DNA of 64,000 nucleotides from an uncultured Desulfovibrio sp. (GTDB lineage Bacteria; Desulfobacterota; Desulfovibrionia; Desulfovibrionales; Desulfovibrionaceae), in assembly GCA_947038175.1 (NCBI GenBank), contig CAMQVJ010000003.1, positions 1 through 64,000 of the forward strand, read 5' to 3'. The notes below the pieces were generated by a model. The model was not told where the DNA came from. It did not search any database and saw only the letters and a program-made list of their open reading frames with translations. Of this stretch, positions 49,761 through 52,376 are shown piece after piece; position 1 is the first letter of the stretch; every line of letters begins with the position of its first letter. Made by a program: the position numbers and the translations under genes.

Positions 49761-50666
49761 ATGAAAAAAGTTATTTGCATCATGGGGCCAACGGGTGCAG
49801 GAAAAACCGCATCGGCGATTAATCTTGCAAAAGCAGGCTATCCTATTCGAGTTATTAATACGGATTCACGTCAAGTTTATTACGATTTTCCGATTATCAG
49901 CGCCCAACCAGATGAGGAAGAAAAATCCGCCTGTCCCCATGAATTATATGGATATTTGCAATGTCATGAGAAGATTTCGGCGGGTGAATGGGTTAAGCTT
50001 GCTAAATCACGAATAGACATTGCCCATAAGCAAGGCTGTATTCCCGTTTTAGTTGGGGGCACAGGGCTTTATTTTCGGGCTCTTTTTGATGGTATTGTGG
50101 ATATTCCGCAAGTTCCTGATGATATTCACCAAAAATATATCGATGAACTAAAAAAAGAGGGCAGCGAATACCTGCACGCAAAATTAGAAAAAATAGATCC
50201 AAGCTATGCACAGAAGGTGCATCACAATGATAAACAGCGTGTGGCAAGAGCTTTAGAAGTATTTGAATCAACAGGAAAAACCTTTAGTGATTGGCATAAA
50301 GGGCAAAGTGTCCAACCTGATTATGACGTGTTGAGAGTTGGCATTGGTATTCCTTTAGCGGAACTCACACCCATTCTTTCTAAGCGCACTAAAATTATGT
50401 TTGAACGGGGAGCTTTGGAAGAAGCAAAAAAGGCTTTGCGTAAATGCCCCGATTTGAGCGCCTCTGCATGGACAGGAATTGGTTGCCGTGAAATAGCCCT
50501 TTTTCTACAGGAAAAATATGACCTTGAGACTTGTATGGATGTTTGGAATAAAAATACTCGTGCCTATGCAAAACGCCAATGGACATGGTTTAATGCGGAC
50601 AAACGCATAAAATGGTTTCGCCCTGAAGAAGATTCTCTTCAGTGTATGCAAGATTTTCTTGTCTAG
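49761..50666 (+). CDS. miaA: tRNA dimethylallyltransferase
   Basis: GPTGAGKTASAINLA, NTDSRQVYYDFPIISAQP, VLVGGTGLYFRALFDGI. Confidence 0.96.
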   Translation: MKKVICIMGPTGAGKTASAINLAKAGYPIRVINTDSRQVYYDFPIISAQPDEEEKSACPHELYGYLQCHEKISAGEWVKLAKSRIDIAHKQGCIPVLVGGTGLYFRALFDGIVDIPQVPDDIHQKYIDELKKEGSEYLHAKLEKIDPSYAQKVHHNDKQRVARALEVFESTGKTFSDWHKGQSVQPDYDVLRVGIGIPLAELTPILSKRTKIMFERGALEEAKKALRKCPDLSASAWTGIGCREIALFLQEKYDLETCMDVWNKNTRAYAKRQWTWFNADKRIKWFRPEEDSLQCMQDFLV

Positions 50667-50810
50667 AATCAATATATTCTTTCTCTTTCTAATTTCTTAC
50701 CTTTGTTAATAAATGAAAAAAAGTTTCTGTTTGCTAGGGAACTTTTCTCTATAAATGTTCTCATGAGTTAAAATATGCTCATAAAATGTTTTTTCAGGAA
50801 GGGGGGCGAG

Positions 50811-50852
50811 GGGGGAAAACTCATTTTGTACTACAAAATGGGGTTTCCCCCC
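50811..50852. terminator. large intergenic palindrome
   Basis: GGGGGGAAAACTCATTTTGTA-CTACAAAATGGGGTTTCCCCCC. Confidence 0.65.
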
Positions 50853-50972
50853 TCTCTCTTAACTATCTAAAGAGCTTCACTCAAATATCTAAATTACCCC
50901 TCTCGAAAATTTAAAATAAACCCTGCTCGCCTTTTTATTGACAAGACAGGGAATGTATTTTATAAGAGTCTC

Positions 50973-51035
50973 ATGAATACGCAAATAATTAAATCTTCTC
51001 CAATGCAAACTAGTTGGTGGTGGCTCGAATCATAA
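50973..51035 (+). CDS. trpL: putative trp leader peptide MNTQIIKSSPMQTSWWWLES
   Basis: 20-codon ORF with three consecutive TGG codons, ~40 nt upstream of a rho-independent terminator that precedes trpB. Confidence 0.88.
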   Translation: MNTQIIKSSPMQTSWWWLES

Positions 51036-51073
51036 ACGGGTCGGATTTTTTGCGCGCAAATTTTGTTATAATC

Positions 51074-51100
51074 ACGACCGTATACTCGGTCGTTTTTTTT
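51074..51100 (+). terminator. trp attenuator terminator
   Basis: ACGACCG-tatact-CGGTCGTTTTTTTT; upstream GGTCG (51040 region) can pair with the CGACC arm as competing antiterminator. Confidence 0.88.
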
Positions 51101-51131
51101 ATGTGAAAATGGGTATGCGGTTATAAATCAA

Positions 51132-52376
51132 ATGGAGTTTCTCATGTCTAAGAACACATCTCATGATAATAACGTAACAGGCGAAAATGGAGTAGGTTTT
51201 TTCGGTATTCATGGCGGACAATTTGTTCCCGACGGGATTAAAGAGCGCCTTGATGAATTGACCGAAGCGTATCTTCGCTATAAAGATGACCCTGATTTTT
51301 TACAGGAACTTCATACTCTCTATACCCATTTTAGCGGTAGACCCACTCCTATTTTTTATTGCGAATCCTTGAGTAAGCACTTGGGCGGAGCAGATATTTA
51401 TTTAAAACGTGAAGACTTGAATCACTTGGGCTCTCATAAGCTTAATAACGTTCTTGGGCAAATGCTTCTTGCAAAGCGCATGGGTAAAACACGCATGATA
51501 GCGGAAACTGGAGCTGGCCAACACGGCGTTGCAACGGCAGCCGCAGCGGCTCTTTTTGGCTTTGAATGCACCGTCCATATGGGTGAAGAAGATATTCGTC
51601 GCCAAGAGCTTAATGTGCTTCGTATGCAAATAATGGGAACAAAAGTTGTACCTGCCACCAATGGCCAGCGCACTTTGAAAGAAGCGGTTGATGAAGCTTT
51701 CGAGGCGTATGTAGCAGATAAAGAAACTTTTTATATTTTAGGTTCTGCACTTGGGCCTTATCCATATCCTGAAATGGTGCGTAATTTTCAATCCATTATT
51801 AGTACAGAATCACGTGCACAATTCCTTAAAATGACAGACTCTTTGCCTGATATGGTTGTGGCGTGTGTTGGTGGTGGTTCAAACGCCATTGGCTCTTTTT
51901 ATGGATATCTCGATGATAAAGAAGTTGAGCTTATCGGCATTGAACCTGGTGGACGTGGCGATCAAATGGGAGAACATGCAGCGAGTATTTCCCATGGCAA
52001 GGTTGGAATATTACATGGCTTTAGAAGCTATGTTTTACAAGATGAAGATGGCGAGGCTGCCAATGTTTATTCTATTTCAGCAGGCCTTGATTACCCTGGT
52101 GTTGGCCCTGAACATGCCTATTTGAGCGATATCGGCAGAGCGCATTATAAAACCATTAATGACATGGAAGCCATTGATGCCTTTTTTGCCTTGTCACGAT
52201 ATCAAGGTATTATCCCTGCCCTTGAGTCCTCCCATGCTTTAGCGCATGCTATGAAGGTTGCACCTAATATGGCGGGCAAAAAAATTCTCGTGACCCTTTC
52301 TGGGCGTGGGGATAAAGACGTGGATCAAATATCTTCCAAGATTAAACAAAAAATTATTAGAATGCCTCAGTATTAG
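51132..52376 (+). CDS. trpB: tryptophan synthase beta chain
   Basis: GRPTPIFYCESLSKHLGGADIYLKREDLNHLGSHKLNN; AETGAGQHGVATAAAAALFG; GGGSNAIGSFYGY. Confidence 0.97.
   Translation: MEFLMSKNTSHDNNVTGENGVGFFGIHGGQFVPDGIKERLDELTEAYLRYKDDPDFLQELHTLYTHFSGRPTPIFYCESLSKHLGGADIYLKREDLNHLGSHKLNNVLGQMLLAKRMGKTRMIAETGAGQHGVATAAAAALFGFECTVHMGEEDIRRQELNVLRMQIMGTKVVPATNGQRTLKEAVDEAFEAYVADKETFYILGSALGPYPYPEMVRNFQSIISTESRAQFLKMTDSLPDMVVACVGGGSNAIGSFYGYLDDKEVELIGIEPGGRGDQMGEHAASISHGKVGILHGFRSYVLQDEDGEAANVYSISAGLDYPGVGPEHAYLSDIGRAHYKTINDMEAIDAFFALSRYQGIIPALESSHALAHAMKVAPNMAGKKILVTLSGRGDKDVDQISSKIKQKIIRMPQY

Follow-up and report, generated by a model that had tools for sequence, protein, structure and literature searches.

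The locus raises the question of why a trpB gene that stands alone should be preceded by the apparatus of tryptophan attenuation, a textbook mechanism that is usually found at the head of a biosynthetic operon. The window, a contiguous stretch of 64,000 nucleotides (64 kb), had been given a first-pass annotation in which a Trp attenuator was proposed to control an orphan trpB, for salvage of indole by TrpB alone during Trp starvation. The explanation that accounts best for the evidence below, and which we hold with good confidence, is a ribosome-mediated Trp attenuator on a single-gene trpB, serving Trp-starvation-induced indole salvage by a TrpA-independent TrpB. The parts of the regulatory region are as follows.

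50938-50966, plus strand: predicted promoter (TTGACA at 50938-50943, a 17 nt spacer and TATAAG at 50961-50966)
50973-51035, plus strand: leader peptide ORF MNTQIIKSSPMQTSWWWLES, 20 codons, with the stop codon TAA at 51033-51035
51015-51023, plus strand: three tandem Trp codons TGG (WWW), the predicted stalling site
51022-51027, plus strand: segment 1, GGCTCG, which pairs with segment 2 as the pause hairpin
51036-51044, plus strand: segment 2, ACGGGTCGG, of which 51037-51042 pairs with segment 1; it pairs alternatively with segment 3 as the antiterminator
51074-51080, plus strand: segment 3, ACGACCG, which pairs with segment 2 or segment 4
51087-51093, plus strand, with the U-run to 51100: segment 4, CGGTCGT, which completes the intrinsic terminator at 51074-51093

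The 20-codon leader with three tandem TGG codons is present in the letters as first described, and it is the sole short ATG-initiated ORF (8-35 amino acids) containing WWW on either strand of the window. The competing pair and the ACGACCG...CGGTCGT terminator were likewise found in place, and both stems are predicted by folding. The terminator (3:4) consists of a stem of seven pairs followed by a U-run and was picked up by a terminator scan; eight T residues stand at 51093-51100, the first of which is base-paired within the stem. This anatomy was correct but incomplete, as the best-conserved stem of the region had been overlooked. The 1:2 hairpin, GGCUCG-(AAUCAUAAA)-CGGGUC at 51022-51042, has its first bases within the third Trp codon, and its loop contains the leader stop codon. 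Classical attenuators have their pause hairpin at this position.

Folding of the individual segments shows how the alternatives exclude one another. When segment 1 was masked and segment 4 was not yet made, the free fold of the window's leader was 2:3 (-10.6 kcal/mol), and when segment 2 was masked it was 3:4 (-11.2 kcal/mol). The two values are close in this genome, and antitermination would therefore rely on the 2:3 stem forming first. With segment 1 masked and segment 4 absent, segment 3 was found on segment 2 in all 20 leaders folded in this way. Folding of 50960-51131 as a whole, which had been suggested as a check, gave an unremarkable minimum free energy that was no better than that of shuffled sequences (z -1.1). 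The evidence for an attenuator is thus one of conservation and covariation, and not of stability.

The covariation was counted on segments placed by hand in 19 distinct leaders, because segment 2 of the window's genus is wrongly shifted by two columns in the MAFFT alignment. Segments 1 and 2 are paired in 113 of 114 cells, with compensatory pair types, and segments 2 and 3 in 123 of 133; for segments 3 and 4 the count is 116 of 133, in a table that places leader L022 wrongly, the terminator of this leader being sound. When the partners were swapped between loci, the mean pairing fell to 0.81 (1:2), 0.77 (2:3) and 0.62 (3:4), which indicates that changes in the stems compensate each other. The letters involved are ACGG-UCG/CGACCG in the window's genus and GCCGCGG/CCGCGGC in most other leaders. 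The attenuator logic put forward at the outset is supported by these three pairings with their compensatory changes, together with the location of the leader beside an orphan trpB. Judged on sequence and comparison, it is near certain that the locus is a ribosome-mediated Trp transcription attenuator. The comparison establishes the regulatory part, a predicted stalling site and a switch set before trpB, from which stalling and antitermination in vivo would be expected.

The start of the leader RNA appears to be unusual. A TTGAC motif begins 35-39 nt upstream of the in-frame leader ATG in all 41 distinct leaders, a spacing that is found by chance at 0.7% of all ATGs in the window. At the usual spacing, the -10 hexamer ends 6-10 nt ahead of the leader ATG (6 nt in the window), which would bring the start of transcription to the ATG or to a position adjoining it; in the window this predicts a start near 50972-50975, which coincides with the leader ATG. 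The -10 hexamers of many relatives are poor matches to the consensus, and the window's promoter is not on the list of a generic promoter scan that requires a T at position 6 of this hexamer. A Shine-Dalgarno-like motif precedes the leader ATG in only three of the 41 leaders and is lacking in the other 38. The fixed TTGAC-ATG spacing and the usual lack of a Shine-Dalgarno sequence suggest that the leader RNA is probably leaderless, and that the leader ORF is probably translated from it in this form. The attenuator RNA of Sinorhizobium meliloti trpL is also known to begin at its leader ATG (PMC7298713), so that a leaderless start would be a predicted parallel here and not a first.

The proposed mechanism can be described as follows. 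RNA polymerase would start at or beside the leader AUG. With an ample supply of charged tRNA-Trp, the ribosome would read through WWW to the stop codon in the 1:2 loop, where it would cover segment 2; the 3:4 terminator could then form, and transcription would end. When charged tRNA-Trp is scarce, the ribosome would stall on the Trp codons and cover segment 1, and segment 2 would pair with segment 3 ahead of the synthesis of segment 4, so that trpB is transcribed. The resulting TrpB, acting without TrpA, would condense serine with indole taken up from outside, yielding Trp. It is known that indole crosses membranes (PMC11085991).

An obvious question is whether the rest of the pathway lies elsewhere. 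The window's genome (2.73 Mb, 96.7% complete) was examined by profile searches, in which no trpA, IGPS (trpC), trpD, anthranilate synthase N-domain (trpE) or PRAI (trpF) was found; control genomes were positive for all of the biosynthetic families searched. The statement that no other trp gene is present had been made for the window, and by these searches it holds genome-wide. The first-pass annotation had named a full trp operon at another place in the genome as grounds for rejecting its reading; such an operon was looked for and is absent. Chorismate synthase (aroC) is present. A tryptophanase gene (tnaA) was not recognisable by profile search. In a cell that has neither TrpA nor IGPS nor a recognisable tryptophanase, the indole would have to come from outside; most likely it is made by neighbours and lets the cell build Trp from it.

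The same absence is seen in relatives. Four of the five other genomes of the genus lack trpA, IGPS, trpD and PRAI, among them one of 2.17 Mb in a single contig (G003), which is without trpA, C, D, E and F. Two genomes from two other genera (G013 and G016) also lack trpA, IGPS, trpD and PRAI. The remainder of the pathway is therefore missing from five of the six genomes of the genus, and from seven genomes in all that carry the orphan gene. One genome, G004, gave one Anth_synt_I_N match in a frame of 678 codons, which could be PabB. The exception within the genus, G001, has a trp operon (locus L077, G001:C10), and its TrpB groups with sequences from Synergistota and Bacillota, which suggests that this operon was regained by transfer.

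The gene that is controlled and its ribosome-binding site are located as follows.

51134-51137, plus strand: Shine-Dalgarno GGAG for the ATG at 51144, placed from the sequence and the aligned starts of relatives
51144-52376, plus strand: orphan TrpB (TrpB1 type), monocistronic; 51144 is the likely start, and the ORF opens at 51132

The position first given for trpB, 51132, is where the ORF opens. The start of the gene is probably the ATG at 51144, since it is preceded by GGAG and relatives start at the equivalent Met. The protein scores 567 bits against TIGR00263 (TrpB1, cut-off 392), and only 165 bits against the TrpB2-type model TIGR01415 (cut-off 519), and is thus not a TrpB2. All active-site positions that were checked, including K87, E109, D305 and S377, are unchanged in every orphan protein covering them. 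The dN/dS ratios of about 0.04-0.14, in which dS is near saturation for some pairs, point to an enzyme under purifying selection.

Two positions separate the orphan proteins from those encoded in trp operons. At position 171, all 22 orphans have D, whereas the 22 operonic proteins all have N or S; position 175, which is R or K in every one of the 22 operonic proteins, is neither in any of the 22 orphans. In Salmonella TrpB, these positions (N171 and R175) presumably sit on a helix facing TrpA. Over three broad TrpA-interface segments, clade-specific change was found at 3 of 17 conserved sites, compared with 6 of 136 (p = 0.06), and this is only suggestive. Of six residues (Res6) described for stand-alone TrpB enzymes (LBCA/plTrpB; PMC11917138), two match (T and S) and four differ. 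It is plausible, although the Res6 comparison speaks against it, that the orphan TrpB works independently of TrpA. Indole salvage would fit an enzyme of TrpB1 type that has kept its catalytic residues under purifying selection in a genome without trpA, IGPS or tnaA.

To place this protein among its relatives, it was used as the query of a first-round search that covered 59 genomes from its order. The proteins found split into 22 of orphan type, the query among them (57-75% identity), and those of trp operons (about 50%). In a maximum-likelihood tree of 56 sequences, the 22 orphans form one clade with a support of 100/99. The clade is drawn from several families of the order, and many of the host genomes also hold an operonic trpB. 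A leader ending in WW or WWW was found upstream of 20 of the 22 orphan loci (the exceptions are L019 and L020), and no comparable leader upstream of the eight operonic trpBs scanned in the same run. The orphan flanks that were inspected have no conserved neighbours, which characterises the gene as a stand-alone unit. As the attenuated trpB lies alongside a full trp operon in many genera, it appears to be an old specialised paralogue and not the remnant of an operon. One point of the first reading has to be amended here: the attenuated gene is also present in relatives that keep a full trp operon.

A covariance model (R1) was built from the 19 leaders, the window's included, all of which match by construction.

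51009-51102, plus strand: attenuator match to model R1 (E 1.9e-7); no other match was reported in this genome

Matches were obtained in 87 of 297 genomes of the order, most of them outside the training set. Directly upstream of an orphan-type trpB, and on the same strand, were 82 of the 88 matches; the remaining six comprise four weak ones (E ~1e-3), one in G294, a genome absent from the trpB list that was used, and one in G013. A TrpB of orphan type was found in 152 of 349 genomes at E <= 1e-140, a cut-off that admits at least one operonic protein (that of G001). Attenuation is not universal, as one genus (g43; L204, L214, L224 and L225) keeps the orphan trpB with no Trp-codon leader upstream and no strong matches to the model. 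The attenuator seems to have been lost there, and another genus, g45, appears to keep a decayed version of the leader.

The match in G013 is an observation of its own. It is a second copy of the Trp attenuator (L215, G013:C2:404550-404655, minus strand; E 7e-9) with the leader MNPRTNPTFEGLWWRLP, and it precedes an AMP-binding/AMP-binding_C_2 gene that resembles phenylacetate-CoA ligases. The genome of G013 also lacks the Trp pathway, and the product of this gene could serve the salvage of indoleacetate.

Three other explanations need to be weighed against indole salvage. That another route of regulation (a T-box, TRAP or TrpR alone) is at work and the WWW ORF is incidental is very improbable: an Rfam scan returned nothing at the gathering score, and even at E 1 it gave no T-box, TRAP or leader family; the WW/WWW codons, the 1:2 loop holding the stop codon and the 2:3 switch are conserved together. 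The idea that trpB and its leader are simply what was left last when a trp operon was lost deserves as little credit. Five of the six genomes of the genus are without the rest of the pathway, which would agree with such a relic; the idea is countered by the separate orphan clade that coexists with operonic trpB in many genera, by purifying selection on trpB and by a leader kept with compensatory changes. In its simple form, this explanation is refuted by the tree.

It is also conceivable, if unlikely, that the attenuator is real and that TrpB has another job under Trp starvation, such as the use of another nucleophile or Trp turnover, instead of indole supply. The orphan proteins do differ at a number of positions that are conserved otherwise and lie close to or outside the active site (T83 to L and A257 to P, in Salmonella-like numbering), and salvage would be less needed in the many genera in which the gene coexists with a full trp operon. 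However, all of the catalytic residues that were checked are conserved, regulation through Trp codons suggests that Trp is the final product, and seven genomes carry the gene without the rest of the pathway. Indole salvage is therefore preferred. In an extended form, which we favour with more reserve, the leaderless attenuator and the TrpA-independent TrpB1 paralogue would be an ancient, dedicated indole-scavenging module conserved across the order. It would have outlived the trp operon in some lineages and left these cells dependent on indole or Trp from the community, with the attenuator as a direct sensor of when to scavenge.

Much of this is known from other systems in separate parts, namely ribosome-mediated Trp attenuation, indole salvage without TrpA, gut genomes with TrpAB only and the Chlamydia trpRBA operon. 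Escherichia coli trpL and S. meliloti trpL-trpE(G) resemble the present attenuator in the short leader with tandem Trp codons, the 1:2/2:3/3:4 segments and the terminator with its U-run. However, the classical trp attenuators of proteobacteria control trpE or an operon, whereas a single orphan trpB is controlled here, in genomes that possibly lack the whole pathway; the present leaders also differ in being predicted to be leaderless, with a promoter-to-ATG spacing that is fixed across the order.

Among the enzymes, TrpB1/TrpB2 of Thermococcus kodakarensis are associated with indole salvage (Hiyama 2014, as cited in PMC11085991). They and TrpB2-type enzymes are alike in making Trp from indole with a TrpB that has no TrpA partner, whereas the protein here is of TrpB1 type and under attenuator control. 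Chlamydia trachomatis trpRBA likewise combines a truncated pathway with indole salvage regulated by Trp starvation, but it keeps trpA, and its control is by TrpR and YtgR-linked attenuation instead of a Trp-codon leader before trpB alone (PMC7755916). The TrpAB-only variant A1 of human gut bacteria keeps only the last step, with predicted use of indole; it has both TrpA and TrpB, and the accessible part of the source has no TrpB-only variant in its table and describes no regulation (PMC9026213). Exogenous indole is also used by gut Bifidobacterium in a trpB-linked manner, but there TrpB and TrpC form a fusion protein, and the organism makes Trp (PMC11085991). The stand-alone TrpB of Pelodictyon luteolum is of TrpB1 type with high activity in the absence of TrpA, although the genome has trpA, and only the two residues mentioned above are shared with it (PMC11917138).

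In the open literature searched, a scope outside which subscription papers and with them general attenuator surveys fall, no description of this orphan trpB attenuator was found, and nothing direct on a trpB attenuator in Desulfovibrio; PMC545781 makes no mention of tryptophan. What was not found there is the combination of an orphan TrpB1 spread across the order with a conserved Trp-codon attenuator, retained even where the whole pathway has been lost. Throughout an order, attenuation is linked here to a salvage step of one gene, and it has been kept where the operon has disappeared. Indole cross-feeding between bacteria could be tested cleanly in this natural system, and genomes of this kind are to be regarded as conditional Trp auxotrophs and not as absolute ones. 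The system would further provide a family of natural enzymes of TrpB1 type that probably function without TrpA, as well as a new set of probably leaderless leader peptides.

Several observations were made in the neighbourhood. Downstream, the efflux operon that had been named as the next unit is confirmed, some 430 bp beyond trpB, by matches to OEP, HlyD_3 and ACR_tran. On the upstream side, the attenuated trpB is closely preceded by miaA (IPP transferase; 49761-50666), which is nearby in G003 too; in the other genera inspected, the two genes were not found side by side. MiaA is a tRNA-Trp modification enzyme with a known influence on trp attenuation in E. coli. A long inverted repeat (around GAGGGGGGAAAACTCATTTTGTACTACAAAATGGGGTTTCCCCCCTC) occupies 50793-50871, in the interval from miaA to the attenuator, with only chance-level matches in Rfam; it is perhaps a strong terminator or a small mobile hairpin.

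A different arrangement was seen at the trp operons of relatives. A supposed conserved leader of 60 amino acids before trpE was rejected, since it turned out to be the last part of a tyrA-like ORF lying upstream. At eight loci (L061-L063, L065, L066 and L079-L081), this tyrA-like frame ends in a conserved ...WWWR... tail, after which come a strong terminator within about 100 nt and then trpE. We take the frame to be probably tyrA from its sequence and the published tyrA-trp linkage. An aro-tyrA-trp arrangement has been reported for Desulfovibrio vulgaris (PMC1173090); together with the gene content, it suggests that the order compared here is Desulfovibrionales. It seems that the 3' end of tyrA acts here as the Trp-codon leader of a trp operon attenuator, the C-terminal tail of the enzyme doubling as the leader peptide. 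At two further loci, L064 and L082, separate short WWW leaders with strong terminators stand upstream of trpE, apparently outside any long upstream frame.
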